Positions 546 to 22,523 of a stretch of DNA of 29,890 nucleotides are shown here, in pieces. Every line of letters starts with the position of its first letter. Positions within the stretch are counted from its first letter, which is position 1. The notes beneath the pieces were generated by a model. The model was not told where the DNA came from, searched no databases, and worked only from the letters and a program-made list of their open reading frames with translations. Source of the stretch: a virus; the IMG/VR virus record IMGVR_UViG_3300030943_000131, positions 1-29,890 of that record. One strand, written 5' to 3'. The position numbers and the translations under genes were made by a program.

Positions 546-891
546 AGGCGATTATTTAACGAGTCTTATTGCAAACAATTTCAGCTTGAAGTTTAAGCAT
601 TGGACGGCTGATAGATTGACTAATGAGCATAAGTATATTGGAGAGTTATACGATAAAGTTTCTGAATTGCTTGATGAATTAGTCGAGGTATCTATCGGAA
701 TAGGAATTGTTTTGCCGGAAGATGAAGAAATTGCAATGAATCCAGGCGGAGTATCTGCTTTAGAATTGATTCAGTTTCAAATTACAACTCTCGATGAAAT
801 AGAAAGCGGAGAAACTGATACCGGGATTCTTACGTTGACTGGTGATATACGTAAAGAACTTAATCACGCAATTTATTTCCTAAAAGTATGA
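538..891 (+). CDS. Small helical phage protein, possibly DUF5856-like
   Basis: A 117-residue protein between portal and protease, overlapping both neighbours (8 nt with the portal, 4 nt ATGA with the protease), so almost certainly translated with them. It is predicted mostly helical. The segment HWTADRLTNEHKYIGELYD, followed by a LLDELVE helix, resembles the ferritin-like helical bundle proteins (DUF5856 type) of some large phages, where a 'HW...aeHkaLgeLYD' motif recurs. In classical lambda-type genomes this slot holds no such gene, so it may be a capsid accessory or a moron. I see no metal-binding set complete enough to claim ferritin or Dps activity. Function is unknown; the family suggestion is weak and from memory. 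Confidence 0.6.
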   Translation: MNKGDYLTSLIANNFSLKFKHWTADRLTNEHKYIGELYDKVSELLDELVEVSIGIGIVLPEDEEIAMNPGGVSALELIQFQITTLDEIESGETDTGILTLTGDIRKELNHAIYFLKV

Positions 892-2102
892 AAGTTACAA
901 AAACAAATTTTCCGAATTGGCTTAAGCTTTTAAAGGGTTCAATCGAACAGGATGATGATGAAGCGGTTGACGTTCTTTTAGCAGAGCCTATAGGAGAAAC
1001 GTTTGACAAAGAAACTTGGCAAAAGAGCGGAGTTTCTTCCAAGGCTTTTGGAGATTCTTTAAATCAAATCCCAAGAAAGAAGCCAGTCAATTTACTTATC
1101 AATACTTTAGGCGGTCGTGTTGATGAGGGTGTGGCAATGCACAATATGATTCTTGCTCGCGGGAATGTAACTACATGTGTGATTGGTTTTGCGGCGTCAA
1201 TGGGCGCTGTTATTTTCCAGGGTGGATCAACTCGTAAGATGATGCCCGGAACAAGTTTGGTATTTCATAATCCTCAGAATAGTTCGCAAGGTGATTATAG
1301 AGACATGGAGAACTCTGCTGTTGTTTTAAAGCAGATGAAGGATAATTTAGTTAGTATAATCTCCGCGCGTTCTGGATTATCTAATAAAAGAGTATCTGAT
1401 TTAATGGATACTTTGCCATTTGCTTCTTTCGGCCCAGAGGATGCTTTAGAGCTTGGTCTTTGCGATGAGATTATACAACATCCAGATGCTTGGAATGATC
1501 TTGCTATTGTAAAGGCAAGTAATGTATATAATTTTGTGAACGCGCAAAAACAAGTTCCTAAAATGGAAATTGTTAATGACGCACAAACCCTAAAACAACA
1601 ACAAAAGAAAATGAAACTCACAGATGCGTTGGCGCGATTGAAAGTAATTTCTTCCGCCGATTTGAATGATGATGAAGCAACGATTCAAGCTGAAAAGTAT
1701 TTGAATTCGTTGGCAGAAAAGAACAAACGTTATGAAGATGAGACTAAAAAGCGAATTGAGTCTCTTGTTGATAGCGTTATTAAAGACGGGCTTGTAAAAG
1801 AGTCTAGGAAAGCGTTTTTGATTGAGATTGGAATTTCCAACGAAGTCAACCTTTCGGAAATTATTAACGATTTGAATGAAGTTCGACTTGATTCTCAAAA
1901 GAAAATCGTTGTCAATAAAGTCAATCACGGCGCGGCTCCTGTTCCTAAAGAAAACGGAAGTAATGACGGTGAAGATGTTGATTCCCAAATAAAAAACCTT
2001 GTCAATTCCATGAAGGATCAAAATCTTTCTGAAAGAACCGAAACAATCAAAAAGCTCGCTAAACTTCGTGGCCGTGAAAATCTTTTCGCTGAGAAAAAGT
2101 AA
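888..2102 (+). CDS. Head maturation protease (ClpP/S14 fold) with scaffold-like C-terminus
   Basis: The 404-residue product has a ClpP-like protease domain in its first ~200 residues. The motif LINTLGGRVDEGVAM (about residues 70-84) is the oxyanion-side 'N-S-x-GG' region; the nucleophile is Ser104 in GFAASMGAVI and the general base His127 in LVFHNP. Asp174 in the DTLPF stretch is the best candidate for the third residue, upstream of the family motif PEDALELGLCDEI. These proteases cleave scaffold and capsid N-termini during prohead maturation. Residues ~205-404 are Lys/Glu-rich and helical, like the scaffold domain that lambda gene C shares with Nu3. Met242 (position 1611) could start a separate 163-residue scaffold. 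The gene starts inside the stop of its neighbour (ATGA) and lies directly before the capsid gene. Confidence 0.85.
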   Translation: MKVTKTNFPNWLKLLKGSIEQDDDEAVDVLLAEPIGETFDKETWQKSGVSSKAFGDSLNQIPRKKPVNLLINTLGGRVDEGVAMHNMILARGNVTTCVIGFAASMGAVIFQGGSTRKMMPGTSLVFHNPQNSSQGDYRDMENSAVVLKQMKDNLVSIISARSGLSNKRVSDLMDTLPFASFGPEDALELGLCDEIIQHPDAWNDLAIVKASNVYNFVNAQKQVPKMEIVNDAQTLKQQQKKMKLTDALARLKVISSADLNDDEATIQAEKYLNSLAEKNKRYEDETKKRIESLVDSVIKDGLVKESRKAFLIEIGISNEVNLSEIINDLNEVRLDSQKKIVVNKVNHGAAPVPKENGSNDGEDVDSQIKNLVNSMKDQNLSERTETIKKLAKLRGRENLFAEKK

Positions 2103-2124: not shown

Positions 2125-3222
2125 ATGAATAAACTAAAACTTCTTTTGTCTGTAATCACTTTGTTGATTACGGTGATGATTGCCACGTCCGGCCAATTGC
2201 TTCTAGCTTTGGTTGTGATGACTGGGCTTTCACTTCTAATCAATACGCGCAAGGCTCAACTTTGCGCTGTTACGTTGTCTGTCCCTGAAATCCTGACCGA
2301 TGTCATGGATGCTTTTAAATTGGAAACTCCTGAATTGTTTCAACCAGGCGGTTTTGGCACAGATTTTTCCAGTAAAACAGCAGTGCTTGGCGACAAGATT
2401 ACAGCCAAAATTGCGCATGTTCCTTTGACTGGAAATTACGACGCAAATAACGGCGGTTTTAAAGCCGCAACACAAGACGTTACAACGCTCATTGAAGACG
2501 TTCCTGTTACACTTGATCAATTCCGGGTTGTTACAATCAATATCAATTGGTTGACTCAACTTGCTTCCAAACTTCCTTTGTATAAAGAAGCTGTCCGAAA
2601 TTACGGTTATGCCCTCGGAAAATTCGTAGTCGATACTGCTCTTGCTACGGTCAATCCTGCTAATTTTTCAAATCAAGTTTCTGTTGCTTTGAATAATATC
2701 ACTTTGGATACGTTTGATAATGATATACGTAGCCAAATGAACCTTCAAAAGCTTTCCAACAAAGGCCGATATTGTATTCTTGGAACGTCGGCAGCGTCTA
2801 AGCTTGGCTCTGATGATCGTGTTCGTTCTTCGTTGTTTTACGGCGCGTTGAACGGTGATCAAGGCTATCGCGTATGGAATAATCTTGCCGGGCTTTCTCG
2901 TATTCGGGAATATCCAGATATGTATAGCCAAAACGGCTTGCTCGGTTTCGCTGGTGATTCTCGCGCTATTGCAATCGCAACTCGGCAAGTTGATTTTTCC
3001 AACTCCGCTGACGCTCTTAATATTCCTAAGGTTATGGAATTTTATCCGATGACAGATTCGGAAAGCACAGTGACAATGACGGGTGCTGCTTGGCAGGAAG
3101 TTGGAACTGGAAATGTATACGTCGCCGCGGGTGTTCTGTTTGGAATTGGCGCTGGAAAACAAGGCGGTGCAAATGGAAGCATTACAGACAACGCTGGCGT
3201 TCGTATTGTTCTTGCTCAATAA
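2125..3222 (+). CDS. Major capsid protein with hydrophobic N-terminal extension
   Basis: A 365-residue protein in the capsid slot, directly after the protease. Residues ~50-365 read like a phage coat protein: VPEILTDVMDAFKLETPELF, an E-loop/strand region with LPLYKEAVRNYGYALGKFVVDTAL, NKGRYCILGTSAASKL, and a C-terminal beta-rich part (FGIGAGKQGG...VRIVLAQ). Similar 'virion structural/P22-coat-like' proteins carry an internal 'grycilgp...a.L' phrase like this one. The oddity is the first ~42 residues: two consecutive strongly hydrophobic stretches (about 5-20 and 24-40) that look like a signal anchor or helical hairpin. If the ATG at 2125 is right, they are presumably removed by the upstream protease. 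No internal start near residue 50 has a clear ribosome-binding site. The coat identity rests on position, length and composition. Confidence 0.8.
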   Translation: MNKLKLLLSVITLLITVMIATSGQLLLALVVMTGLSLLINTRKAQLCAVTLSVPEILTDVMDAFKLETPELFQPGGFGTDFSSKTAVLGDKITAKIAHVPLTGNYDANNGGFKAATQDVTTLIEDVPVTLDQFRVVTININWLTQLASKLPLYKEAVRNYGYALGKFVVDTALATVNPANFSNQVSVALNNITLDTFDNDIRSQMNLQKLSNKGRYCILGTSAASKLGSDDRVRSSLFYGALNGDQGYRVWNNLAGLSRIREYPDMYSQNGLLGFAGDSRAIAIATRQVDFSNSADALNIPKVMEFYPMTDSESTVTMTGAAWQEVGTGNVYVAAGVLFGIGAGKQGGANGSITDNAGVRIVLAQ

Positions 3223-3711: not shown

Positions 3712-4278
3712 ATGAAAAAGAAACTTATCAGTATTCTATTTATTGCGCTTCTTGCGGTTTCTTCCGCATTTGCGCAATCGAATAGCAGCTACACCACAAT
3801 CACACTTCCGTTTACAGCTATTGCTGGAGGAATAACAACAAATTTGTTCAACGGATGGACAAATATCACTACGTATACAAACATCGTTCAGCGATGGGAT
3901 TCGACTAATGGTGTGATAACTAATACGACTAATACGGTTAGTTACACGAATGTTTCGTATGCAAGTTTTACGGCGGCTAACAATCAGAATTCAATTCCGA
4001 TTGTTATGACTGGAAATAGCAGCGACACAACTACTACGTCAAACGTTATTTTTTCAGTAGTTAAATCTATTGATAATATCCATTGGGCCACTAATACGCC
4101 TGATTTGACATGGGAAACAAATAGCGCAACCGGCACTGCTTTTGCGACAGGCCAAGTCGTTATTGATATGACTGGTTATCGTTACGGTCGTATTTATTCG
4201 TTTATTTGGTCAGACACGAACACGTTGCATTTTTGGACGAATTCGTTTTTAGGAAAGAGCGAAAAGCCTACTTTCTAA
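3712..4278 (+). CDS. Exported Thr/Asn-rich protein of unknown function
   Basis: A 188-residue product starting one base after the previous stop. The N-terminus is a textbook Sec signal peptide: MKKK, a hydrophobic core ISILFIALLAVSS, and a cleavage site AFA|QS near residue 21. The mature part is very rich in Thr, Asn and Ser, with TN repeats such as ITNTTNTVSYTN, and probably forms beta structure. Aromatic-Asn spacing (WTNITTYTNIVQRWD, NIHWATNTPDLTWETN) suggests a small carbohydrate- or surface-contacting fold. It sits inside the head/neck operon, where exported proteins are not expected. It could be a virion decoration protein, a superinfection-exclusion factor, or cargo for the host envelope. 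I do not recognise a family. Confidence 0.78.
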   Translation: MKKKLISILFIALLAVSSAFAQSNSSYTTITLPFTAIAGGITTNLFNGWTNITTYTNIVQRWDSTNGVITNTTNTVSYTNVSYASFTAANNQNSIPIVMTGNSSDTTTTSNVIFSVVKSIDNIHWATNTPDLTWETNSATGTAFATGQVVIDMTGYRYGRIYSFIWSDTNTLHFWTNSFLGKSEKPTF

Positions 4279-4282
4279 GAAA

Positions 4283-4621
4283 ATGTCTGTTGTCTCACAA
4301 ATTCTTACACAACAAGCAAACCTAACGGCTGCAATTCATGGAGATACCATGACTTTGCAGCCAATGGGGTTGCAAGTTATTGGATATGCGCAAGAAGTTA
4401 GTGCAGACCCGGACGAAAAGGGCTTAGGCAAAAAACATCCATCTTTACATACTGGGATGGATGATCTTTCTCATATAATATACATTCGCAAAGAAGAGAT
4501 TGGAAATACTAATCTTTCAAACGTAAATACGATTATATTCTTTGACGGAACGTATAGGGTTCAACATTACGTTAATGATCCAGTTACGCCTGAAATTGCT
4601 TTTTACTGCAAAATTGCATGA
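4283..4621 (+). CDS. Putative head-tail joining protein
   Basis: A 112-residue soluble protein with a beta-rich second half (SHIIYIRKEEI...VNTIIFFDGTYRVQHYVNDP) that reads like a small connector or head-closure barrel: strand-turn-strand around 'FFDGTYRVQHYVND' is similar to the ring-shaped stoppers of the lambda FII / HK97 gp7 group. It lies between the capsid block and the tail-terminator/tail-tube genes, the expected location for connectors, and overlaps the next gene by 4 nt (ATGA). No diagnostic motif is present; the role is inferred from size and order. Confidence 0.6.
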   Translation: MSVVSQILTQQANLTAAIHGDTMTLQPMGLQVIGYAQEVSADPDEKGLGKKHPSLHTGMDDLSHIIYIRKEEIGNTNLSNVNTIIFFDGTYRVQHYVNDPVTPEIAFYCKIA

Positions 4622-5355
4622 ACGAAGAAGTTATACAAAGCAATATAGCCGAATTTAATTATCGGCTTGTGCAATATCAACAGGCTTCAGGCAAAGTTCC
4701 AGAGCAGGTTTTACGGGAAAAAGCCGCAAGACTTGGGTATATACTAAAAGAAAATTTTAAGAATTTAATTCCTTCGCAGGGGTATATAACCGATGAACGA
4801 TTGGAAGCTTTAAAAGAGGGAAAAGGTGTAAAGATTAGCAAGGCGGCATCTAGTTACATTTCAGAAAAATATCAAGTTCAAAAACAAAGTGGCAGAACTT
4901 GGATGGCTGTTATGAGCGGAAAGAAACAGCGCGGGAAAAAGGTTTCGTATTTTGCGACAATGGTCCCTGACCCTAAAACTGGAAAACTTTTAAACGTTCA
5001 AGCGTTAAGGGTTCAATTTGAATTAGCCTTGCGCGAATCTGGGCGTGGATTTTTAAGTCATTCATCCGACTTTCACCAGTCAAGGTATATTTCAGGAGAT
5101 TCTGAAAAAGCATACGCTCGCAATAGTTCAGTTTTAGGTGAAGTTGACATGGAAATGTCAATAATGAATGAAAGTGCAACATTAAAATGGGGACGTTCTA
5201 TTTCTCCTTACTCTCGCGGAATTGCAGCGGCAATGGAACTTCCAAAATCCCAGTCAATTATTGCTGATTCTATTCGATATATATCTGAAGATATGAAGGT
5301 GTATATTGATCGTAAGAATAGGGAGAATATGCAAAAAAGCTTTTATGAATCTTAG
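4618..5355 (+). CDS. Putative neck / tail-completion protein (HK97 gp10 position)
   Basis: A 245-residue protein starting in an ATGA overlap with the connector gene. The N-terminal half is helical and Lys/Gln-rich (RLVQYQQASGKVPEQVLREKAARLGYILKENFKNLIP); helical starts of this sort with '...ra.kla..lk..ap' occur in HK97-gp10/lambda-Z-like tail completion proteins. The middle contains basic loops (MSGKKQRGKKVSYF) and the C-terminus is helical again. Gene order (connector, this gene, terminator, tube) matches the gp10 slot. It is longer than the usual 130-190 residues. Assignment is by context. Confidence 0.55.
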   Translation: MNEEVIQSNIAEFNYRLVQYQQASGKVPEQVLREKAARLGYILKENFKNLIPSQGYITDERLEALKEGKGVKISKAASSYISEKYQVQKQSGRTWMAVMSGKKQRGKKVSYFATMVPDPKTGKLLNVQALRVQFELALRESGRGFLSHSSDFHQSRYISGDSEKAYARNSSVLGEVDMEMSIMNESATLKWGRSISPYSRGIAAAMELPKSQSIIADSIRYISEDMKVYIDRKNRENMQKSFYES

Positions 5356-5821
5356 CGATATACGTCAAAACCTTTATAATATCATCAATCCATTGCCGTT
5401 TATGGAATTGTTTGATGCGTCTAAAGTCTTATTGATTGACGATGGAAATCAGCGTCAAGCGATGGAAAGCGCGTTGGTAGATTTTGGAATGGTTATTTTG
5501 CTTTTACCTCCGCAATGCGTAAAGATAAACGAGCAAAGCCGAAAACAAGTTTCGCTTGACTATTCAACTACGGTTTGGATTCGCACAAATCCGAAAGTGA
5601 AATACAAAGAAGGCGAGAAGATTTTTGATCCTTTGGAAATTGAGCAGCAAATCATTCCTGCTGTTATCACTTGGATTCCAAAAGAGAACTTTGGTCAAAA
5701 GCCGTTTACAATTCCGAATGGACTTGAACCGGAAAGTGATTGGTCAGATATTGGAAATGACAGTCGATTGATTCGATTTTCAACACAGATTATTTACTCA
5801 ACAAACACAACAACAACATAG
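5345..5821 (+). CDS. Putative tail terminator protein
   Basis: Start chosen at the ATG at 5345 (MNLSDIRQNLYNIIN), 11 nt inside the previous gene; the frame is open upstream but an earlier start would create a larger overlap. The 158-residue product has the features of tail-terminator proteins: an N-terminal helix, mixed alpha/beta core, a strand pair (QVSLDYSTTVWIRTNPKVKY) and a long C-terminal strand. Terminators cap the tail tube and bind the connector. It directly precedes the tail-tube gene, as lambda U precedes V. No residue-level motif is available, so this is mainly a positional call. Confidence 0.55.
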   Translation: MNLSDIRQNLYNIINPLPFMELFDASKVLLIDDGNQRQAMESALVDFGMVILLLPPQCVKINEQSRKQVSLDYSTTVWIRTNPKVKYKEGEKIFDPLEIEQQIIPAVITWIPKENFGQKPFTIPNGLEPESDWSDIGNDSRLIRFSTQIIYSTNTTTT

Positions 5822-5829
5822 AAAAAATT

Positions 5830-6357
5830 ATGGACGCAACAAAAATTATCGCAACAGGAGATTATCTATTTTTTGCCATCGCGGCAGCAGGAACTTCTTC
5901 TGCGCTTATTAAACCCGCTGCAAACGACGCGGCGTGGATTACTTTAGGCGTTGTCGAGAGTCACGAGGATAAACTTGATGATGAAAAGGAAGAGAAGATT
6001 TTCGCTCCACAAGGAACTACAGGTGTTTTAACTATAAAAGATACAGTTGTCACAAAGCAGAATCTTGAGTTTGTATTTACAACTGGCGAGCTTACCCCTC
6101 TTGCGCTTCAAGCGTTTTATCGGACGTTGAATTTGACTACGGCGTCAACGCAATTTAATCCGCTCTCTGGCACAGTTCCAAAGGGCTGGCTAAAGGTGCA
6201 GCGTTACGCCCAGGACGGCGTTGCGGCGTTTGTTGCCGATCTTTGGGGCCGTCTTAAGGTTACTGGCGGAATGAAGTCTGGCGACGGTTCTATCGTCAAG
6301 CCAGCGTTCTCTCATCTCCTTCTCCAAAGCACTCTTAATACCGTTGCCATTGCTTAA
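5830..6357 (+). CDS. Major tail (tube) protein
   Basis: 175 residues, beta-rich, with the profile of siphovirus tail tube proteins: ATGDYLFFAIAAAG, 'WITLGVVESHEDKLDDEKEEKIFAPQGTTGVLTIKDTVVTKQNLEFVFTTGE' as alternating strands with charged loop, and an Ala/Gly-rich C-terminal strand pair ending in SHLLLQSTLNTVAIA. It starts 8 nt after the terminator stop in an A-rich leader. The abundance of short strands, the length and its place after the terminator support the call. Unusually, the tail chaperones and tape measure that normally follow the tube gene are 6.5 kb downstream. Confidence 0.72.
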   Translation: MDATKIIATGDYLFFAIAAAGTSSALIKPAANDAAWITLGVVESHEDKLDDEKEEKIFAPQGTTGVLTIKDTVVTKQNLEFVFTTGELTPLALQAFYRTLNLTTASTQFNPLSGTVPKGWLKVQRYAQDGVAAFVADLWGRLKVTGGMKSGDGSIVKPAFSHLLLQSTLNTVAIA

Positions 6358-6361
6358 TTTT

Positions 6362-6493
6362 ATGAGCGAAGAACATAGAAAAATTGAAGGCGCTTTCACG
6401 ACTGAAAAACCGGAAGAGATAAAGCTTGTGAGCGAGACCGTAAAAGGTGAAGCTGTTCCGATGCCTAAACTGGAAAAGAAAGAATCTGAATAA
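6362..6493 (+). CDS. Small charged protein, 43 aa, unknown
   Basis: A short gene fills the gap after the tail tube gene. It begins MSEEHRKIEGAF, is dominated by Glu and Lys, and ends in KKESE; its stop shares one base with the next ATG (taATG), so it is probably translationally coupled. Codon choice matches its neighbours. Such charged, unstructured peptides could be assembly factors or virion minor parts. No homologue is recognised. Confidence 0.6.
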   Translation: MSEEHRKIEGAFTTEKPEEIKLVSETVKGEAVPMPKLEKKESE

Positions 6494-7083
6494 TGAAAAA
6501 GATTGTTTTGTTTTTATTGTTGTTGATTACTATTGCGGTTTGCTATGGGGCTGGATTTAATACCAATGCGCCATCTCCTATTACATATCCAGTTAATTCT
6601 GGTAAGTATTCAATAACATTGAATAGTAATAATTGGAATACATACACTAATAGTTGGGCGCAAGGGTTTAGTATTACTTCTTATTCTAATAATATTGGAT
6701 TTATATCTAATTCTGGTTCGCTTGGTATAAATTTTGGTTCTAGTAATTGGGCTTTTTCATCTCCGGGTGTAATTGGAACTTTTGTTTCTTTTACATATAG
6801 TAATTCAAATCCTAATTATTCAGCATACCTTCTAATTACAGATGGCAATGGAGCTTTATACAGTGGATCAACAAATACATTAAATACAAGTGGTATTTGG
6901 ACAAATACTTCTTTTGTTGCATATAATAACCAGTTTGCTCCTACTAACTTTTTTAGTGTTATTATTTTATCAAATAATACTTCATCATCAGCATCATCGC
7001 TAAAAGTTTCCAACGTCCAAGCTGGATATTATTTTCCGGGAACATTTGTAACGAACGCGCCTTCTACAAATACAATCAACTAA
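6493..7083 (+). CDS. Exported Asn/Ser-rich beta protein
   Basis: 196 residues with an obvious signal peptide (MKKIVLFLLLLITIAVCYGA, cleavage near residue 20). The mature part has very high Asn, Ser, Thr and Tyr and regular strand-turn patterns (WNTYTNSWAQGFSITSYSNN, SYSNSNPNYSAYLLITDGNG), consistent with a jelly-roll or beta-sandwich. It is the first of three consecutive exported proteins between the tail-tube and lysis genes. The DNA here is noticeably AT-rich because of AAT/AGT codons. It may be a receptor-contacting or decoration protein; no family recognised. Confidence 0.75.
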   Translation: MKKIVLFLLLLITIAVCYGAGFNTNAPSPITYPVNSGKYSITLNSNNWNTYTNSWAQGFSITSYSNNIGFISNSGSLGINFGSSNWAFSSPGVIGTFVSFTYSNSNPNYSAYLLITDGNGALYSGSTNTLNTSGIWTNTSFVAYNNQFAPTNFFSVIILSNNTSSSASSLKVSNVQAGYYFPGTFVTNAPSTNTIN

Positions 7084-7086
7084 AAT

Positions 7087-7950
7087 ATGAAATGTTATTT
7101 CGTATTATTTTTTGGATTGCTGTTTTCGTTTTCGTCTTTTGGTTCATTGGTGACAGGGACTAATTACAATATTGCCGGAACGCCGGTTGATATTGATATG
7201 ACGTTTACGTCAAGCAATGCGTTTAACGCTGTTCCCGGTGGAATCGTTGTAAAGAATTCTATTCTAGTTCCAACTACTAACGGAGCGTATGCAATAAATA
7301 TTCCCGCCGGGATATACAATTCAATTGCCAACGGAAGATTGCTTTGGACGTTTGCCGTAACAGAGACAACAAATACTCTTAAGATGGTAGATTTAATAAT
7401 CTCAAGTCCTGGAGTTATTAGCTTTTCTCCAATGTGGGGAACTAAGATATACAGTAATGATTCTTCTGCTGGGTATTTGGCTGAGAAGATTACCGCGGGA
7501 ACAAATGTTATAATATACATTGAAACGAATAATAATTCACAAAGACTAGTCATTAACGCCAGTGCCAGCGACCTGACCGCGGCTTTGGCGCAGACTAACG
7601 CAGCGCTGACAATGGTGGATCAGACCAACGCTGCAAACATCTTGATAGTTAGCAATGCCATTCCGATGACCGCCAGCAATCTTTTAACAATTGTTTCCGG
7701 TGAGAATTATCAATTGACTACAATAAATCGTAGATCAGATGGAATTGCAACCAATGCAACTGTTCTATGGCCTGACGGAACGTTTGGAGTGTTCACTACA
7801 ATAGTTATTGGGACTAATTCTTCAGGAGATACTTCAATTGATTCTTACCAACTCACATACACTAACTCGTCTAAAACGATTACCCAACCTAGCGTTGTCC
7901 GAAACGCTGATGGATCAGTAACCAACAAGCCTGCCTTAACCATATTTTAA
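7087..7950 (+). CDS. Exported tail-fibre-like protein
   Basis: 287 residues; the N-terminal 19 residues (MKCYFVLFFGLLFSFSSFG) form a Sec-type signal sequence. Residues ~25-160 look like a beta domain with a conserved-looking GAYAINIPAGIY segment; ~160-205 is a helical Ala/Asn stretch (DLTAALAQTNAALTMVDQTN) typical of fibre coiled coils. The C-terminal ~75 residues include VLWPDGTFGVFTT and ...QPSVVRNADGSV, phrases I associate with the C-terminal domain of many phage tail-fibre or spike proteins. It starts 4 nt after the previous stop with the leader taaaatATG. A signal peptide on a fibre protein is unexpected. Confidence 0.72.
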   Translation: MKCYFVLFFGLLFSFSSFGSLVTGTNYNIAGTPVDIDMTFTSSNAFNAVPGGIVVKNSILVPTTNGAYAINIPAGIYNSIANGRLLWTFAVTETTNTLKMVDLIISSPGVISFSPMWGTKIYSNDSSAGYLAEKITAGTNVIIYIETNNNSQRLVINASASDLTAALAQTNAALTMVDQTNAANILIVSNAIPMTASNLLTIVSGENYQLTTINRRSDGIATNATVLWPDGTFGVFTTIVIGTNSSGDTSIDSYQLTYTNSSKTITQPSVVRNADGSVTNKPALTIF

Positions 7951-7951
7951 A

Positions 7952-9535
7952 ATGAAGAATATAATTATATCATTTCTGCTTGTAATCTCTGCTTTCACCT
8001 CCGCCGCCGGAGTGCTCGACCCGCCGCCGATCTCCAAGGCGACTGTGACAAACATCGCAACCGCCGTCGCGCTTTCAACCTCGCCCAGGGCGTACCTAGC
8101 AACATCGTATCCTATATCGTTAATGCAAAACGGAAGCTATACTACGACGTGGTACGGGTTTTCTTTTGGGAATATTGTGTCAAATAGTTTTGTTGCCACA
8201 AACATTAGCCTGTTTGTTAAGATCGCGTCTTCAAATGCAATAGGAGTTGTCACGTTATACGATTCAGACGTGATTCCAACCAGTTCTATTGGAACCCCCA
8301 TTTGGACTAATAGCAGTGTCTCGTTTAACTATTCACCTTCTACGTTTGAGTCTATTTCAATTCCTATGCCATCAATTCAAATAACGTCTGGCCATTATTA
8401 TGAGTTGCTTATACGATTTCAAAATACAAATATATTGACCCAAGGTTACTTCTATAATCATAATAGCGGTATTCCTTTATGGAGCTTAAGTTCGTTGTCA
8501 GGGGCGACTGATCTGTCTCCAACAAACAATTTCAGCGCATGTGCATTCAATTTCAGCGGTTACCAGAATGTATCAGGTAACGCGAGCAACACGGCTTATA
8601 CGGATGAAGCAAGTGGAATTCCAGGAGCGACAACGGTCAAGAAGGCTTTGGATACTCTCGGAAGTTCTATAGACTTGTCAAAAACTATTATTATTGTCGA
8701 TGGAGATTCAAAAGCAACAGGTCTCGACTCGTATATTAAAGCTGATCCTTGGATGTCTAAATTTGCATGGTATAGCAATGTTGCAGTTGGAGGAACCGGA
8801 CTTTCTGATGTAACTAATTCATGGGAAACGAAAACGAGGTTATTTTCCAGTAATTTAATCGGAGGCACGAATGGAATTTATCTACTCTGGACTGGCCACA
8901 ATGAATACACTCAACCGATTCCAGAATGGATCACGAAACTGACCAACCATATAGCTCGAGTTGCCTCGTCAAATTTCTCAGTTGTATTGCTCACAACAGC
9001 CCCTCGGGCGAGTTATAACCAGGATTCGACAAACAGTTACGAATGGGTTAGCGCCGTAAACAACTGGGAGAGGGACAACGCACCTGTGTGGAGATTGATT
9101 GACGCCGGGGCAATATTTGAGGACGTATACAACATGACACCCTATTCCGACACAACACATCTGGAACCGTTTGGGAACTCGAATATTATAAACATGATTG
9201 TTAAATGTTTGACGACTGAGCAGCGTTTTGTCCGTCCGTCGTTGCGGCCTGTCTCACTTTTTGGGACTAATTTAGTTTTTACCGCTCCGCAGACAAACGG
9301 ACTGCTCAGGCTGGTTGGAAATGTTAATGGAAACACGTGGAACATTAGGCCGACAATCTCTGCAAAGAATGGAGTGTCGATGGTTAATTGCGCCTCTGCA
9401 CCTATACTATCGTATATCGGCGAAACAAACACTGTTATCGAGTGGTGGAGCAATTCAGTTCCACCGACAAAATATGCAACGTATTATGACTTCAACTCCA
9501 ACGTGGTGAATAAAGTCATCGTAACGTTTCCGTGA
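7952..9535 (+). CDS. Exported SGNH/GDSL hydrolase of the tail region
   Basis: 527 residues. A signal peptide (MKNIIISFLLVISAFTSAAG) is followed by a beta-sandwich-like region (about 50-205), a linker with the phage-fibre phrase ATTVKKALDTLGSSI, and an SGNH hydrolase domain from ~245. All four blocks are visible: the nucleophile in G251-D252-S253, the glycine in NVAVGGTGLSD, Asn317 in TGHNEY, and the Asp400-x-x-His403 pair. Such domains remove acetyl groups from polysaccharide or other esters at the cell surface. A C-terminal ~110-residue beta domain follows. The gene starts 2 nt after the preceding one. The combination of signal peptide, beta-sandwich and SGNH suggests a surface-modifying enzyme, either virion-borne or exported. 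Confidence 0.85.
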   Translation: MKNIIISFLLVISAFTSAAGVLDPPPISKATVTNIATAVALSTSPRAYLATSYPISLMQNGSYTTTWYGFSFGNIVSNSFVATNISLFVKIASSNAIGVVTLYDSDVIPTSSIGTPIWTNSSVSFNYSPSTFESISIPMPSIQITSGHYYELLIRFQNTNILTQGYFYNHNSGIPLWSLSSLSGATDLSPTNNFSACAFNFSGYQNVSGNASNTAYTDEASGIPGATTVKKALDTLGSSIDLSKTIIIVDGDSKATGLDSYIKADPWMSKFAWYSNVAVGGTGLSDVTNSWETKTRLFSSNLIGGTNGIYLLWTGHNEYTQPIPEWITKLTNHIARVASSNFSVVLLTTAPRASYNQDSTNSYEWVSAVNNWERDNAPVWRLIDAGAIFEDVYNMTPYSDTTHLEPFGNSNIINMIVKCLTTEQRFVRPSLRPVSLFGTNLVFTAPQTNGLLRLVGNVNGNTWNIRPTISAKNGVSMVNCASAPILSYIGETNTVIEWWSNSVPPTKYATYYDFNSNVVNKVIVTFP

Positions 9536-9595
9536 TTCAACGCCCAGTTAGCACACATTAGTTTTACAACAGCACGGAAAAAAGCTTTGCATAAT

Positions 9596-9769
9596 ATGAG
9601 GAATTTATTTGCATTCATACCATCTGCGGCTGCCATTATTGGATGGTTCGCTCATTGGGAGTCAGTGTTTGTTTCACTGGCTGCCATAGTAGGGTCTATT
9701 TGGAGTTCTATCTTGATTTTTGACTGGATTATGCCTAAGATAATTCGTCGCTTTTTCAAAAAAGCATAA
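9596..9769 (+). CDS. Holin-like small membrane protein
   Basis: The ATG at 9596 gives 57 residues; an upstream TTG at 9587 would add three. Two hydrophobic helices (FIPSAAAIIGWFAHW and VFVSLAAIVGSIWSSILIF) are separated by a short polar turn and followed by a strongly basic tail (PKIIRRFFKKA). This is the usual shape of small class II or pinholin-type holins, which permeabilise the inner membrane and set lysis timing. A lipoprotein and a peptidase follow, supporting a lysis cassette. Holins have no sequence signature, so the call is topology plus context. Confidence 0.65.
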   Translation: MRNLFAFIPSAAAIIGWFAHWESVFVSLAAIVGSIWSSILIFDWIMPKIIRRFFKKA

Positions 9770-9787
9770 CAACAATACATCCGAAAT

Positions 9788-10051
9788 ATGAAAAAAATCC
9801 TACTCTCCGCCTGTTCCGTCGCGCTTTTGTGCGCGTGCAACACGACGCATTACAGCGCCGTCACGGTCTATTCAGACCACACTAACACAACCACACTGGA
9901 TAATAGTCGGTGCATGTGGTCCAGCCAAGGCTATACCGCAAATCTAACAACGAATGGCGGATCGATCACTTGTTCGGCGTCTAGCACGGACACGGCTGCA
10001 ATCGAAGCCGCAACCAAGGGAGCAGTCGAGGGAGCCGCAGCCGCAAAATAG
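9788..10051 (+). CDS. Small lipoprotein, possible outer-membrane spanin or lysis lipoprotein
   Basis: 87 residues with a type II signal peptide: MKKILLSACSVALLCAC, lipobox LCAC with the acylated Cys near residue 17, then Asn-Thr-Thr. The mature part is Thr/Ser/Ala-rich and ends in an Ala-rich helix (AAIEAATKGAVEGAAAA). Position +2 is Asn, not Asp, which favours outer-membrane sorting under the enterobacterial rule. Located between the holin-like gene and a peptidase, it fits the place of an o-spanin, but no i-spanin partner with a long periplasmic coiled coil is visible next to it. A superinfection-exclusion lipoprotein is an alternative. Confidence 0.68.
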   Translation: MKKILLSACSVALLCACNTTHYSAVTVYSDHTNTTTLDNSRCMWSSQGYTANLTTNGGSITCSASSTDTAAIEAATKGAVEGAAAAK

Positions 10052-10057
10052 GAGTCT

Positions 10058-10837
10058 ATGATATTTTTACCAAAGCCAAAGCACATACCTCTCAAGATGG
10101 GTCGTCTCGCGTCCAAGCGAGACAAACGCACTCTCAAGTTTTCTCGCTATCTCAGGACTGCTCTGCCGAACATCCCTGATGTATACCAGTCAGGTCGAGC
10201 TGTCAAAGACTGGCTTGCGCTCGGGAATTTAAACGCAGGTGATTGTGTGTTCGCAACAGCCTTTCACATGCTAATGGATTGGCGGAAAGAGCACGGGATC
10301 GATTTCTCCCCTACTGATGCCCAGGTGCTTGCACTCTACAGCCAGCTTGCAGGATACGACCCGGCCCGGCCATCAACCGACGTTGGATACAACGAACTCG
10401 ACCTGCTCAAATACTGGCAGTCAACAGGCATAGCTGGCAGGCCAATCTCCGCATTTGTGTCCGTTGATCCATCCGAGTTGCAACACATTCGGACGGCCAT
10501 ATACCTGTTTGGGGCTGTGTTCGCTGGCGTTACACTCACGCAGCGAGCAATGGACGAATTCCAGGATCGCGATACCTGGCACCAGACCGCGCCATGGTTC
10601 GGCGGAAAGCGCGTTCTTGGTGGCCACGCCATACCGTTGATCGGTTACGACGCAAAAGGTTTCTGGTGTATAACATGGGGTCGACTTCAATACTTGACAA
10701 ACGAGTGGTGGACAAAATATGGCGATGAGGCGTGGGCTGTCCTGGCGCACGATTGGTCAGACGAGAACACCGTATCCCCGACATCATTCGATTTCATAAC
10801 TTTACAAACCGACCTGGAATCAGTGAAGTCACTATGA
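10058..10837 (+). CDS. Papain-like (C1 family-like) cysteine peptidase
   Basis: 259 residues with a clear Shine-Dalgarno (aggag, 4 nt before ATG). Cys63 sits in LNAGDCVFATAFHM, equivalent to the Q-x-x-x-C-W helix of papain-fold enzymes, and His190 in LGGHAIPLIGYD matches the G-H-A-(V/I)-x-(L/V)-x-G-Y signature. Where classical papains have N-S-W-G, this protein has ITWG (residues 205-208), so the usual third residue Asn is missing. The C-terminal phrase LTNEWWTKYGDEAWAVL recurs in a bacterial/prophage subgroup from memory. No signal peptide. Adjacent to holin and lipoprotein, it may act as an endolysin-like peptidase on cross-links or as a protein-processing enzyme. The region is GC-richer than the rest of the window. 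Confidence 0.75.
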   Translation: MIFLPKPKHIPLKMGRLASKRDKRTLKFSRYLRTALPNIPDVYQSGRAVKDWLALGNLNAGDCVFATAFHMLMDWRKEHGIDFSPTDAQVLALYSQLAGYDPARPSTDVGYNELDLLKYWQSTGIAGRPISAFVSVDPSELQHIRTAIYLFGAVFAGVTLTQRAMDEFQDRDTWHQTAPWFGGKRVLGGHAIPLIGYDAKGFWCITWGRLQYLTNEWWTKYGDEAWAVLAHDWSDENTVSPTSFDFITLQTDLESVKSL

Positions 10838-11268
10838 AGCCGCATTTTTCACTTTTCGGCATACCAGTGTTTCATGGAACGAACGTGTTGTCAAATAACT
10901 CAGACGGTAAGACATGGACGGTTGTTGACAAGCTCGGATACTATTCGGACGTGCTGGCAATGACTGTGACTGTGCTTGCCGGATTCCAGACCGACCTGGC
11001 CAGCATTCCGCAGTTTCTCTGGAGCATTTTATCGCCGTTCGGAAAGTATACCAACGCCGCAATAGTGCATGACTGGCTATATACATTTCAGCCCTGCACG
11101 CGGGCGCAGGCTGACTCCGTGCTGCTTGAAGCGATGGAAGTTTGCGGTGTTAGTTGGTTCACACGAAAGGTCATCTATTACAACGTGCGCATGTTCGGCG
11201 GATCCTATTGGAACCGCGATCATACCGCCGACAAAATCCTCAAACCGATCAACCAATCAACAAAATGA
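10834..11268 (+). CDS. DUF1353-type phage protein
   Basis: The ATG at 10834 overlaps the peptidase stop (ATGA) and gives 144 residues. The core [20 protein letters not shown] (about residues 50-69) followed by [11 protein letters not shown] and a later YYNVRMFGG is the hallmark of DUF1353 proteins, which are common in phage lysis/tail regions and have no established biochemical role. The conserved Asp-Leu-Ala-Ser-x-Pro and His-Asp-Trp-Leu-Tyr motifs suggest an enzyme or hydrolase-like active site, as inferred for the family. It shares the elevated GC of the peptidase gene and probably moved with it. Confidence 0.82.
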
Positions 11269-11480
11269 AAACTATACAATTCATCCAAAACCACTGGCAA
11301 TGGTTCGTTGCCGCTGTGCCAATTATTGGCCGCGCGTATTACGCAATCGTAAACAAGGGTGGCATCGTTGGAATCTGGCGTGCGCTGGTGTTCGGAACAA
11401 ACACGCCAAAACAGCCAGTAGATACCGAGCCTCCATACCCAGAGCCTGGGCAGAATCCAAAACATATATCTTTACAATGA
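11265..11480 (+). CDS. Small membrane-anchored protein, 71 aa, unknown
   Basis: Start at ATG 11265, overlapping the DUF1353 stop by 4 nt, giving [29 protein letters not shown] at the N-terminus. One membrane-spanning segment is likely (about residues 13-30), followed by a short amphipathic part and a Pro-rich tail ([11 protein letters not shown]). It ends by overlapping the fibre gene by 4 nt. A lysis accessory such as a second holin/antiholin or i-spanin-like anchor is possible, but the tail is too short for a spanin. Function unknown. Confidence 0.62.
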
Positions 11481-12892
11481 AAATAAATCTAATTCTTTTC
11501 TGCTTTCTATTTTGTTTTTTCTCGACAAAAGCAGATATAGTAATTCCTTGGGATTTGTATAGTGACAATAATTCAAGTGTTACTAATTATGTGACAGTTT
11601 CGGTTTCAAATTCAACCACTAAAACAGCTTTAGCCCAAAAAGGAATGGCGACTACAGATCAATTAAATGCTACTAATGATGCGCTTGTAGCTAAGACTGC
11701 AACCGCGCAAGCTGCGTGTCAGCCTACAAACGGAAACTTGACGGTATTAGCAAGAAACGATGGCCGATATTTGGATTATGTCGTCGGAACTGGATGCAAG
11801 TCAGGTAATGGAGAGATATATTATAATGGAGCATATTGGGTTTTTACTCAGCCGATTATTGCAGATGGAGGCAGCTTAACGGGCATCACAGCAGGACAAG
11901 TCGGGGCAGCGTCAATAAGTCAACTGGAAGATACCAACGCCGCGCTGCAAACTCAGATTTCAGGCGTGTCAAATTCCGTTACTGTGTCAGTCGCCAGCAC
12001 GACAACAGTAGGTCCCGGTACGAATGCCAACGTTGTCAACATAGGCGATTCCAGGTCTGTTAACCTCCAATTCTCGATCCCAAAAGGCGACACTGGCGCG
12101 ACGGGCAGTCAAGGACCACAGGGCATCCAAGGCGTTGCCGGTGTCAATGGCACTAATGGGATCAACGGCACGAACGGAGCGGCCGGACCCCAAGGCGCAA
12201 CAGGCGCAACAGGCGCTCAGGGACCGCAGGGAATTCAGGGTGTTGCTGGTGTCAATGGGACAAATGGAGTCAATGGCACAAACGGAGTTACGGGCGCGAC
12301 CGGCGCGACGGGACCAGTAGCAACAAATGCGGCCTACGCCACGAACGCTTATTGGGCAGATTATTCTGGGAGCGCTAACTTTTCCACGAGCGCGACTTAT
12401 GCGACAAACTTGTCTTTTACCTATGCAGGTAATACGTGGAGCATCAACTTCAGTCGCCTCCGCGGCAACTCTTGGGTAGTCGATGGTAACATGAACCTGA
12501 GCGGGAGTTATGCCGGTGATGGCAGCCAGCTTTCAAGCATAACAGCAGGCCAAGTCGGCGCGCAGCCGACGAATGCAAATTTGACAACGCTTGCAGGCAA
12601 TAACGGCAGCGCTCTAACTGGTATCACCCCAGGACAAGTCGGGGCGCAGCCAACGAACATGATTCTGACTTCGATAGCGAACGGAGATAGCAGTGTCGTG
12701 ACGAATGCGGCTCATGCAGACTCGTCTAGCACGTCAATATCGACGAAAGGCTTTGAGAACTTTCTCAGAGCGCAAAGGCCGACGGATAATCTACTTACTG
12801 GCCGTGCTTATTTCCAAGCCGACAACACGCCCGGCCTGCGCGTCTGGAACGGCTCGCACTGGGTTAGATTTACAGAAACAAACGACGATTAA
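11477..12892 (+). CDS. Collagen-repeat tail fibre with signal peptide
   Basis: The frame is open far upstream, but the ATG at 11477 (ATGA overlap) begins a typical signal peptide, [19 protein letters not shown]. The 471-residue product then has a helical Thr/Asn region, a GQVGAAS repeat, and residues ~205-280 as Gly-X-Y collagen-like repeats ([16 protein letters not shown] twice), followed by more GQVGAQPTN repeats and a C-terminal knob ([16 protein letters not shown]). Collagen triplets and '[12 protein letters not shown]' repeats are known trimerising elements of phage fibres. It sits directly before the tail chaperones. The signal peptide is hard to reconcile with cytoplasmic virion assembly and parallels the 6493-9535 genes. 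Confidence 0.8.
12110..12319 (+). repeat. Collagen-coding direct repeat, two copies, 108-bp period
   Basis: Two copies of a segment encoding [17 protein letters not shown] start at 12110 and 12218. Their DNA differs mostly at third codon positions, so the duplication is old and maintained for protein sequence. The stretch gives the Gly-X-Y triplets of the fibre. Confidence 0.8.
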
Positions 12893-12907
12893 GATAAATA
12901 TAAATAT

Positions 12908-13267
12908 ATGACAACAGAAAACACAGTTAGTAAAACAGAAACTCTTTTCGGTGGGACTGAACTTGTAGTTTCTTTGAAAGACGGAACATCTGAAATTGTA
13001 AAAGTTATACAACTTCCCGTTTCAAAGTTTATTGACTTCGCAAAAGTTATCGACGATGAATGTGAGATGGTTTCTTTGGTTTGTAATAAGAAAAAAGAAT
13101 GGTGCGATTCATTACAGATTGAAGCTTTTGAGCTTTTAGTTGCTGAATGTGAAAGGATAAATATGGATTTTTTCGGGCGCTGGCTCCAGCGAAGGATCAA
13201 TCGGCAACAAAGAATTCTTCCGGGAACACTTCCGCAATCAGTCTTGCGGACTGGTGCGCAGAAGTAG
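12908..13267 (+). CDS. Tail assembly chaperone, short form (gpG-like)
   Basis: 119 residues in the slot just upstream of the tape measure. The N-terminal ~85 residues (SLKDGTSEIVKVIQLPVSKFIDFAKVID...) resemble tail-chaperone domains, which begin with a strand-rich 'g.v.v.elpl.kl..l.' segment and bind the tape measure. The frame continues to a TAG at 13265, and the last ~30 residues are basic (FGRWLQRRINRQQRILPG) without evident fold. A slippery T TTT TTC at 13168-13174 allows ribosomes to shift to frame -1 and make the longer GT form, the conserved arrangement of siphovirus tails. The leader is aatatATG. Confidence 0.78.
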   Translation: MTTENTVSKTETLFGGTELVVSLKDGTSEIVKVIQLPVSKFIDFAKVIDDECEMVSLVCNKKKEWCDSLQIEAFELLVAECERINMDFFGRWLQRRINRQQRILPGTLPQSVLRTGAQK

Positions 13268-13482
13268 CCATAGAGCTTGGATATACACTTGCGCAAGTTC
13301 TGGGTCATTCTCCTGCGCAACTTGAGCTGCTTACGAGCGCTGCTAAAAGAAAGAATTCAGCAAACGGTTTACTTATGCTAAATACGAGTTATGCTTCTTT
13401 TGCGGCGGTAATGTGCGAGAACGGAAATTCAGTGTATAATAAACTTAGAACAACTCTAGCTTTACAATGTCAGATCAAATAG
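12908..13482 (+). CDS. Tail assembly chaperone, frameshifted long form (gpGT-like)
   Basis: The first 89 codons (12908-13174) are shared with the short form; slipping back one base at 13168-13174 continues from position 13174 in frame -1 for 102 codons to a TAG at 13480-13482, giving ~191 residues. The extension has no independent start and reads as a helical protein: ISLADWCAEVAIELGYT, LAQVLGHSPAQLELL, then MCENGNSVYNKLRTTLA. This matches the T domain, which recruits the tail tube protein during assembly. It overlaps the tape-measure start by 16 nt. The site, the reading and the location all agree with the widespread G/GT system; the frequency of shifting is unknown. Confidence 0.85.
13168..13174 (+). 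promoter_or_regulatory. Programmed -1 ribosomal frameshift site
   Basis: The heptamer T TTT TTC is in the zero frame of the chaperone gene as Phe-Phe and permits re-pairing of both tRNAs after a one-base backward slip. Three bases later lies an inverted repeat (CGCTG at 13178-13182 with CAGCG at 13187-13191) that could form a short stimulatory hairpin, although the spacer is shorter than usual. Confidence 0.82.
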
Positions 13483-16094
13483 AGATTAGAATGGCCCTTT
13501 CCGGGGTTCAATTGATGCAGTCTCAATTGGATCAATTACGGGAAGGGTTTTCTTCTTTTAAAGAAGTTTTAAAAGAAGTCGCTGGCCCTCTCCTTGCGAT
13601 AGGAACAATTGCTGGTTTTACTGAATTGTCAAAAGAAGTATTTAATGTATCAAATGAAATAGTAACTCTTAGCGAAAGAACTGGAGAGTCAACTGGTAAT
13701 ATTATTGCATTTCGTGAACTTTTAAAAGAAAGCGGATCAAGTGCTGATGATGCAGGCAGACTTTTTAAGCAGATGCAAAAGTCGATAGAAGAAGCCGCAG
13801 AATCAGGAGGGGATGCTGCTGGTGTTTTTCATAAACTTGGAATCGATTTAAGTAATATATACCAGGATAGTCCATCTGAGCAGTTTATAAAAATAGCAAG
13901 TGCGATTGGTCGGATTAAAAATAGAGCGGAACAAACATCTGTTTCGATGCATATTTTTGGAAAGTCTGGCGAAGAAGTTGTTGCAATAACAAAACATCTT
14001 GCTGAGTTTCAGGAACAAATTAAAAAACCAGGAGATTATGCAAAGGTGATGGATCAAAGCGGAAATGTGTTTAAGGAAATGTATGTAGCTTTAGACCATC
14101 TCAGCGAGCAGCCTATGCACTTTGTAACAGGGGTTTTAAGTGAGTTGGATTCTCAAATCAAAACTATTGCAGAGGAAATTAAAAATATTGATTTGACTGG
14201 GCTAGGTCAGAAAGTTGGTTCATTTTTTGGAGTAATAATTGAGTCATGGAAAGATGGGAAATTTTCAGAAATGATAGGGCTTGTAATAGAAGCCGGATTT
14301 GAACTTGGCCATATAGCATCTAATCGTATAATGACTGCTATTGGAATAGATGGAGCAGAAATACTTAGCGCATCATCTTTATGGAATGGAATTATGACTT
14401 TTGGAATAAGAGTTGCAGAATTTGTAGTTGAAACTATTACAGCTATAGCAAATGGTTTTGGCGCAACATTAAAGTATATCTTCGCAGAGCTTAATCATGG
14501 AATTGATCTGTTGCTTTTTAATTTGAAAACCGGATTTTATTCTGTTGTAAACTATTTTATAGATAGTTTTAATATGGCTATTAGTTTTGCCATATATCAG
14601 CTTAATAAAGTTCTCGAAAAAGCTGGCGGACATGTCGATGAAAAGGCAATGTCAAAACCTGATTCGTATGTTCAGCCAGTAAAACCTCAAGATAAATCTT
14701 TAGGCGATTTTTATAAAGACGAATCAGACAAAGGAACATCGGAGACTATTATACACGATCTTGAATCTCAGTTAAATAAAGCACGAGAGTCAATTGGTAT
14801 TAAGGTTGATGATTCTGGAAATACTGCAATAAAGCGTTTGTCTGATTTAATGGATCAATACCGAGAAAAACATGCTTTAACGGTTAATGAATCAAAAAAA
14901 CCTATCGAGGTAAATGTAAATAATAAATCTATTGAAGAAAAAACACCCGGAGATCAACTTGATGAATTAAAGCATAATTTAGAACTTTCTCAGCAAGTAA
15001 TGGAAAGAAACAGCGCAGCAAGAAAAGTTACTGATAGCGATTGGCAGTTAACTAATTTAGAAAAGTATCAACTGGATCAAGAGTATAATGCCAAAGAAAT
15101 TAGCGGGCTTGAATATCAAGCTGATTTACTTAGAAAGATTGCCGATATTTATAATAAAACCGGAAAAGAAAAAGAAGCAAACGCAACCATAAAACAAGCT
15201 GATAAAATTGACACTGAAATTACAACCAAAGGAAGTCAAAATGCTCAACTTCCCAATCCAAACAATTACAGTCAACAATTTAAAAAATCTTTTGTTGAAA
15301 TTAGAAACAATTGGAAAGGGTTAGCAACTGAAATGGCAAGCACCCTTAAAAATGTTTTTCAAACAGCAGTATCTTCTATTAGTAATGGAATTACTGGATT
15401 GATAATGCGCACAAAAACTTGGAAGCAAGCTTTATCTGAAATTGGAAATACGATATTGACTTCTATTGTTTCGTCAATAGTAAACATGGGTGTTAGATGG
15501 TTGCTTGAGCATACCATAATGAGCGCGATATCAAAATGGTTTTGGGGGGAAGATGCTTTATCAGCAGAAACAGCCAGCACATCAAAAGTAATAACAATAA
15601 CAACGGCTAATGAAACAATTGTAATATCCAATGCTGCGGTTGCCGGTTCGGGTGCGGCTTCTTCGCAGGCAAGTATACCGTATATTGGCCCGATTTTAGC
15701 TGTAGCTGCAATGATTGGTATTATTGCCGCTGTTCTTTCTATGTGCAAGTTTTCTGAGGGCGGCTACACCGGGGACGGCGGGAAGGATGATGCGGCGGGC
15801 ATTGTCCACAAAGGTGAATATGTAATGAATCAAGAAACAGTCAACCGTGTTGGTCTTAATTCGCTTAACCAAATACAAGCCGGTAAAAACGAATACAATG
15901 CACCCTATGCTAAATCATCTATAGCATCCAGCACTAACGCCGCCACCGGTCGCGCTGGAGCAGCGCAAGGCGTCCAGGTGCATGTTTGGGGCGATTCCAA
16001 GCAGGAGATGGTAAAGCATATTCAGAGCAATTCAGAAGTTCGTCATTCAATGGTTAAATTCTACTCGCAAAATAAACATCAAATTGCATCATGA
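13467..16094 (+). CDS. Tail tape measure protein
   Basis: At 875 residues this is the longest gene. It starts within the chaperone GT reading frame and has the expected order: helical start (LSGVQLMQSQLDQLREGFSSF), a tape-measure domain with SNEIVTLSERTGESTGNIIAFRELL, long coiled-coil stretches, hydrophobic segments (about 330-400 and near 735-755) that could form membrane helices during ejection, and a C-terminal FSEGGYTGDGGKDDAAGIVHKGEYVMN motif (about 760-790) found at the end of many tape measures. The protein sets tail length; at roughly 1.5 A per residue it predicts a tail near 130 nm, an extrapolation from the known rule. It overlaps the next gene by 4 nt. Confidence 0.9.
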   Translation: MSDQIEIRMALSGVQLMQSQLDQLREGFSSFKEVLKEVAGPLLAIGTIAGFTELSKEVFNVSNEIVTLSERTGESTGNIIAFRELLKESGSSADDAGRLFKQMQKSIEEAAESGGDAAGVFHKLGIDLSNIYQDSPSEQFIKIASAIGRIKNRAEQTSVSMHIFGKSGEEVVAITKHLAEFQEQIKKPGDYAKVMDQSGNVFKEMYVALDHLSEQPMHFVTGVLSELDSQIKTIAEEIKNIDLTGLGQKVGSFFGVIIESWKDGKFSEMIGLVIEAGFELGHIASNRIMTAIGIDGAEILSASSLWNGIMTFGIRVAEFVVETITAIANGFGATLKYIFAELNHGIDLLLFNLKTGFYSVVNYFIDSFNMAISFAIYQLNKVLEKAGGHVDEKAMSKPDSYVQPVKPQDKSLGDFYKDESDKGTSETIIHDLESQLNKARESIGIKVDDSGNTAIKRLSDLMDQYREKHALTVNESKKPIEVNVNNKSIEEKTPGDQLDELKHNLELSQQVMERNSAARKVTDSDWQLTNLEKYQLDQEYNAKEISGLEYQADLLRKIADIYNKTGKEKEANATIKQADKIDTEITTKGSQNAQLPNPNNYSQQFKKSFVEIRNNWKGLATEMASTLKNVFQTAVSSISNGITGLIMRTKTWKQALSEIGNTILTSIVSSIVNMGVRWLLEHTIMSAISKWFWGEDALSAETASTSKVITITTANETIVISNAAVAGSGAASSQASIPYIGPILAVAAMIGIIAAVLSMCKFSEGGYTGDGGKDDAAGIVHKGEYVMNQETVNRVGLNSLNQIQAGKNEYNAPYAKSSIASSTNAATGRAGAAQGVQVHVWGDSKQEMVKHIQSNSEVRHSMVKFYSQNKHQIAS

Positions 16095-22444: not shown

Positions 22445-22523
22445 ATTTATCGGATTCTGTTTTGGATTCCTTGTTTGCGCAATAATTTACACTGCCCTAA
22501 TCGCGGCTGTATATCGAAAATGA
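22434..22523 (+). CDS. Single-pass membrane peptide, 29 aa
   Basis: This tiny ORF overlaps the preceding gene by 11 nt and the pentapeptide gene by 4 nt (ATGA), so its frame is framed by coupled translation on both sides. The product MKSKFIGFCFGFLVCAIIYT... has two N-terminal lysines, one hydrophobic helix of about 21 residues and a C-terminal YRK, the layout of a small transmembrane peptide. It could be a membrane-acting accessory such as a toxin or an inhibitor peptide, or a translation leader for the next gene. Confidence 0.5.
   Translation: MKSKFIGFCFGFLVCAIIYTALIAAVYRK

Follow-up and report, generated by a model that had tools for sequence, protein, structure and literature searches.

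Predicted export signals on appendage-type proteins, kept across a little-known lineage of tailed phages

The virions of tailed phages are held to be built wholly in the cytoplasm, and phage fibres typically combine a conserved N-terminus with a variable body. Export of virion parts is familiar from filamentous phages, in which the receptor-binding protein pIII is Sec-exported and attached at release. Filamentous structural proteins such as pIII and pVIII are membrane-anchored (PMC3185693). They reach the inner membrane and join the particle as it is released, but, unlike the phage considered here, filamentous phages are non-lytic and have neither an HK97-type head nor a tail. Exported membrane proteins of phages, of which lambda Lom is an example, are encoded by a signal-peptide gene within the tail operon (PMC12309495); Lom, however, is a single membrane protein, is not fibre- or spike-like and is not part of a conserved set beside capsid and tube genes. 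The tailspike-like protein WceF of Pantoea stewartii is exported by a signal (PMC7949094), but it is a bacterial gene product, carries a Tat signal and retains a P22-like head domain. Here, we analyse a 29,890-base linear virus record (IMG/VR record IMGVR_UViG_3300030943_000131; "the window" means this whole stretch) whose late operon encodes five proteins with predicted signal peptides and one lipoprotein. As with Lom, signal-peptide genes lie within a tail operon. Phage morons and superinfection-exclusion genes of the Lom type would be sporadic, stand-alone units with a promoter and terminator of their own; the genes here are packed in the operon, and the position of one of them, SP1, is conserved among relatives. 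The genes in question, all on the + strand, are as follows.

3712..4278, + strand: SP1, signal peptide plus beta-sandwich/jelly-roll domain (rule scan, homologues, AlphaFold2 (AF2) model)
6493..7083, + strand: Thr/Asn-rich signal-peptide protein of 196 amino acids (aa), without a family (signal rule, sequence)
7087..7950, + strand: signal-peptide protein with a tail-cluster C-terminal domain at residues 212-286 (7720-7944; similarity to phage TripleJ)
7952..9535, + strand: signal-peptide protein with the SGNH-hydrolase motifs GDS, GxN and DxxH (sequence motifs)
9788..10051, + strand: small lipoprotein of the lysis cassette, lipobox LCAC (lipobox, neighbours)
11477..12892, + strand: signal-peptide collagen-like fibre (Pfam Collagen 1e-14; PHROG tail-fibre matches 4e-22, collagen-driven)
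11534-11551, + strand: mature N-terminal tip of the 11477 fibre, DIVIPW
about 12077-12334, + strand: collagen repeats of the same fibre

The proteins at 3712, 6493, 7087, 7952 and 11477 begin with signal peptides of the signal peptidase I type, with lysine in the n-region, a hydrophobic core of 12-19 residues and an AxA/AxG-type site; that of SP1 is MKKKLISILFIALLAVSSAFA followed by Q (residues 1-21, site AFA before Q). The 9788 protein starts with MKKILLSACSVALLCAC, which holds the lipobox. There is no in-frame upstream start for 3712, 6493, 7087, 7952 or 9788; 11477 is the sole exception, and its ATG overlaps the stop of an upstream small open reading frame (ORF; ATGA). The 6493 start overlaps the stop of an upstream 43-aa ORF (TAATG), and the starts of 7087 and 7952 lie 1-3 bases after the preceding stop. 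The start codons are well fixed, and the hydrophobic N-terminal segments are therefore translated. Supported starts precede the signal segments rather than lying downstream of the hydrophobic stretch, and mis-called starts are ruled out by the upstream-start check together with the stop overlaps.

These signals were counted with a strict rule of our own, rather than SignalP, which asks for a positive n-region, a core hydropathy of at least 2.2 and an AxA-like or lipobox site. The rule also picks up some capsid hairpins, and it misses 11477, for which the gene caller took a longer frame. It flags 28 of 121 late genes from the window plus its nearest relatives and 18 of 94 from sister lineages, compared with none of 531 from 66 portal-related outgroup contigs and 24 of 6,050 shuffled proteins (0.4%). 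Among the + strand genes of two isolates, it marks 0/27 in Akkermansia phage Moulinsart and 0/36 in Verrucomicrobia phage P8625. Chance hydrophobic N-termini are ruled out by these counts, and the two isolates rule out signal peptides as a trait of all verrucomicrobial phages. The five signal peptides and the lipobox proposed in the first-pass annotation are thus borne out by canonical regions, fixed starts and counts above controls.

The same N-termini could instead be uncleaved helices that trimerise or anchor appendages within the virion and do not work as signal peptides, and the capsid protein of these phages indeed has a hydrophobic N-terminal segment that is a hairpin and not a signal peptide. 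This is very improbable given the canonical three-region architecture with AxA sites, and given that Gln would be the first mature residue for 19 of the 43 cleavage sites predicted across the window and relatives, under a scoring that slightly favours Q/A/E/D/S. It also fits poorly with the freedom of the signal segment among orthologues, which in independent contigs varies in sequence and length while its physico-chemistry and AxA sites stay constant. Sec export of the signal-peptide proteins is, on these sequence features, very probable, and export followed by cleavage is strongly indicated; the export signals on appendage-type phage proteins are real and are kept across the lineage. As an aside, Gln at the predicted sites resembles the Q-rule of Bacteroidetes and could hint at the host; the description of that rule (PMC5837995) does not mention Verrucomicrobia.

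Homologues of the capsid protein occur in six contigs at 64-69% identity, and deeper relatives were added by portal and terminase searches. Relatives within the lineage retain the signal peptides. SP1 follows the capsid gene at a short distance in each of the eight core members that could be assessed (the window, L002, L003, L005, L006, L007, L013 and L019), and a signal-peptide protein also follows the capsid position in L012 and L014, in which protease and capsid protein appear to form one fused product. Weaker SP1 relatives are detectable by profile in G011 and G012, and no signal-peptide protein occupies the SP1 position in L015 or P8625. The interval between tail tube and tail chaperone holds at least one signal-peptide protein in every assessable phage (the window, L111, L096, L099 and L121), and further ones lie in the tail regions of G002, G007, G009, G011, G012, G013 and L025. 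Other cassette members differ from phage to phage. Portal and terminase trees place signal-peptide phages on several deep branches; change counts on these trees are not informative, because unlabelled close contigs mostly end before the fibre genes or are not labelled. A scan based on the tube protein found no new phages.

The tube-chaperone interval is known in five phages (the window, L111, L096, L099 and L121), and in each of them exactly one signal-peptide protein of the interval carries a tip of three hydrophobic residues, proline and a further hydrophobic residue (Gly allowed first) a few residues past the predicted cleavage site: IVIPW, GVIPV, YVLPV, GVIPL and FVLPL. The joint chance is about 5e-9, as a product of chances for a motif picked after seeing the data. 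No BLASTP similarity links the fibres at 11477, L111 7895, L096 7357 and L099 10319, and a tip conserved on variable fibre bodies is the main reason to favour attachment to the virion rather than free secretion, though as a lead and not as proof. By the predicted cleavage, the tip is exposed only once the signal peptide has been removed.

The best reading, tentative and held at slightly less than an even chance, is that these proteins are tail appendages which are exported and then attach to the particle at lysis. The collagen fibre, the SGNH-esterase protein, other fibre-like proteins and, in relatives, beta-helix depolymerase spikes would be made as Sec precursors, as would the small jelly-roll protein whose gene neighbours that of the capsid protein. 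The host Sec machinery would export the precursors, signal peptidase I would cut the signal peptides off, and the mature proteins would fold and gather at the cell surface or in the periplasm. Assembly of heads and tails would meanwhile proceed in the cytoplasm, and once the inner membrane has been opened by the holin these exported proteins could attach to finished particles, the main fibre perhaps docking through the hydrophobic-proline tip at its new N-terminus. Attachment at lysis is moderately supported by the conserved gene positions and by the tail modules in several mature parts, and docking through the shared tip is a weak suggestion.

Appendage modules are recognisable in L025, in L002 7895 (a K1-lyase C-terminal domain) and in 7087 and 11477 of the window; in 6493 and 3712, no receptor-binding or enzymatic tail module was found. 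Of the two proteins in which fibre-like C-terminal parts were noted earlier, 7087 ends in a tail-cluster domain and 11477 is a collagen-type fibre (Pfam, PHROG). The C-terminus of 7087 is 46-48% identical to those of gp28 and gp29 of Arthrobacter phage TripleJ, with gp30 weaker. TripleJ gp28-gp30 lie in a minor-tail cluster adjoining an SGNH esterase gene, comparable to the 7087/7952 pair, but the host of TripleJ is Gram-positive and no signal peptide is found in its gp26-gp31. The SGNH hydrolase proposed for 7952 stands on its GDS, GxN and DxxH motifs, seen by eye, and has no sequence match in Pfam, NCBIfam or the Protein Data Bank (PDB). Relatives encode SGNH/GDSL-like proteins with signal peptides too: L005 5888, recognised by eye, and L101 12801, whose Pfam Lipase_GDSL_2 match (E 2.7e-4) falls short of the cut-off. 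In L023 and L024, two signal-peptide spike genes (15393-18404 and 12119-15130) are identical over their last 300 codons and 50-78% identical per 100 codons over their first 400, as would be expected of recombination within the gene with an exchanged or conserved C-terminus, which fits swapped appendage modules.

Scans of viral contigs gave no close relatives of 7087 or 7952, and the phage collection, when searched, held no match for the capsid protein, SP1, the C-terminus of 11477, 7952, L101 12801 or L002 7895. A shared Thr/Asn-rich composition had been taken as a sign of common origin: the composition is confirmed (19-28% Thr+Asn versus 6-15% in other late proteins), whereas the common origin of the six genes is not supported, no homology among them having been found.

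A different outcome is suggested by the spike of L025. Residues 22-221 form a pectate-lyase-like module shared, at 30-38% identity, with VSW-3 gp27 (from residue 319), the Achromobacter phage Axy04 appendage gp43 (from 244) and pphageT12 gp52 (from 31; E 9e-14 to 5e-11). These homologues have 318, 243 and 30 residues ahead of the module and no signal peptide; the signal peptide of L025 therefore occupies the place of their N-terminal part. Their N-terminal part, presumed to dock on the virion, is absent from L025, where similarity begins at residues 22-24, directly after the signal peptide. Together with TripleJ gp28-30, these distant domain homologues are the only ones found to lack the N-terminal signal segment.

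The main rival reading, held at clearly less than an even chance, is that the proteins are exported non-virion effectors: fibre- or spike-type modules that would have lost their docking parts, gained signal peptides and, during infection, degrade or mask polysaccharide and receptors on the surface of the infected cell, so that superinfection is blocked and progeny are freed. Besides L025, this is favoured by WceF as an existing exported tailspike-like glycanase, by Lom, whose gene lies between tail-spike and tail-fibre genes (PMC12309495), and by modules suited to surface remodelling: an esterase (7952), a lyase (L002 7895) and an adhesin (L103 12383). Free effectors do not readily account for an SP1 gene fixed beside the capsid gene or a tip-bearing fibre fixed between tube and chaperone, nor for exported cargo of up to about 3,000 aa in one phage (in L003, three signal-peptide fibre-type proteins total 2,944 aa). 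Moreover, the genes lie within the structural operon, and promoter and terminator scans found no excess over shuffles.

Several points weigh against virion attachment. The lineage is known from sequence alone; the L025 signal peptide stands where VSW-3 and Axy04 have presumed virion-docking residues, and a secreted enzyme acting freely could well have lost that part. Adhesin-like proteins are among those that relatives would export, such as a product of the L103 tail region (12383-13435) that combines a signal peptide with Invasin_D3 and Big_1 domains, and the J-like tip protein (18655) could by itself be the receptor-binding protein. The tip motif was chosen post hoc, and the likeness of SP1 to a capsid cement protein is weak. 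To our knowledge, no tailed phage attaches fibres via export, and full-text literature searches returned no report of signal-peptide tail fibres. Of the two routes first proposed, export to remodel the cell surface or an unusual virion route, export itself is well supported and the evidence leans slightly to the latter.

A division of labour, with SP1 and the tube-chaperone fibre in the virion and the esterase, adhesin and lyase as free exported factors, would explain why the tip is found on only one signal-peptide protein per phage and why SP1 is fixed on the capsid side while other cassette members vary; it is nonetheless improbable, as 7087 and 7952 parallel the TripleJ pairing of tail-cluster domain and SGNH esterase, so that they too argue as appendages. 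If the preferred reading of exported appendages is true, it breaks the cytoplasm-only rule for tailed-phage virions. Alternatively, these phages would have repurposed receptor-binding proteins as secreted enzymes that modify surfaces; in both cases they supply a natural collection of proteins, made by phages and exportable, that are active on polysaccharides or adhesive.

The AF2 model of SP1 is a beta-sandwich (pLDDT 74), and fold searches return generic jelly rolls; the top PDB match is the BPP-1 cement protein, a weak one (E 0.014, TM 0.29/0.36), and many other jelly rolls score alike. The capsid protein is homologous to phage coat proteins, in keeping with an HK97-fold major capsid protein (phrog_283 E 7e-4; P8625 coat protein, hhalign prob. 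93.5, E 2e-7). AF2 predicts helices at its residues 3-21 and 25-39 (pLDDT 68-83) and backs only this hairpin, because pLDDT in the body is mostly below 50 and that part of the model is unreliable. This hairpin, overlooked in the first-pass annotation, is flanked by positive residues, with none in its turn, and is present in every core member, L008, L013 and L019 among them; the charge pattern predicts an N-in/C-in topology with a cytoplasmic body. The P8625 coat protein, which lacks the hairpin, aligns with the capsid body from its residue 23, and the hairpin is therefore an addition of about 45 residues. T4 heads assemble on the inner membrane, and the delta domains of HK97 and T5 are thought to be helix-loop-helix (PMC3185693); the hairpin is likewise predicted as helix-loop-helix, yet it is strongly hydrophobic; a membrane-bound or hydrophobic delta-like role, in which the head protease would remove it, is possible.

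A more far-reaching proposal is that virions are completed outside the cytoplasm: heads would be held on the inner membrane via the capsid transmembrane hairpin, and a head-decorating protein and fibres or spikes would be Sec-exported, processed by signal peptidase and clipped on at lysis through tips made by cleavage. We consider this unlikely, though well short of negligible. Sister lineages with signal-peptide fibres lack the hairpin, and the two traits are therefore separable.

The other late genes, listed below, belong to an operon of tailed-phage type. It runs from the portal end through the head protease and capsid protein, the neck genes and the tail tube into a mixed interval, and on to the tail chaperone, the tape measure and the tip proteins. 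SP1 sits between a small post-capsid gene and the head-closure gene.

888..2102, + strand: head maturation protease (ClpP-like) with a scaffold-like C-terminal part (PHROG E 8e-40)
2125..3222, + strand: major capsid protein with an N-terminal hydrophobic two-helix hairpin (residues 4-41, about 2134-2247, within 2125-2259)
5830..6357, + strand: tail tube protein, start of the signal-peptide interval (32% identity to tube-position genes of relatives; no family match found)
9587..9769, + strand: holin-like small membrane protein (translation)
10058..10837, + strand: peptidase-like protein, candidate endolysin (phrog_19005 E 5e-25, unknown function)
12908..13267, + strand: tail assembly chaperone, end of the signal-peptide interval (PHROG E 2e-8; alignment with relatives)
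13467..16094, + strand: tape measure protein (PHROG E 1e-27)

The lipoprotein at 9788 is flanked by the holin-like 9587 and the peptidase-like 10058, and lipobox genes near lysis-type genes also occur in L012, L013 and L015; it is most likely an ordinary lysis-cassette lipoprotein. The nearest isolates by portal, P8625 and Moulinsart, infect Verrucomicrobiota and have no SP1 and no capsid hairpin. A close capsid and portal relative, L008 (CAIYET010000123.1), is a 3.8-kb contig binned in a Candidatus Hydrogenedentes metagenome-assembled genome, a weak host hint; a search for capsid matches in 68 genomes of that phylum returned only this already known contig.

Two minor observations concern gene architecture. 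In sister lineages, head protease and capsid protein are apparently fused in a single long reading frame: L012 (14302-16632), L014 (17750-20206) and L015 (5674-7950). In the window, 22475-23149 encodes a protein made mostly of pentapeptide-like repeats (A/N-D/N-L-x-x), directly upstream of a helicase-like gene.

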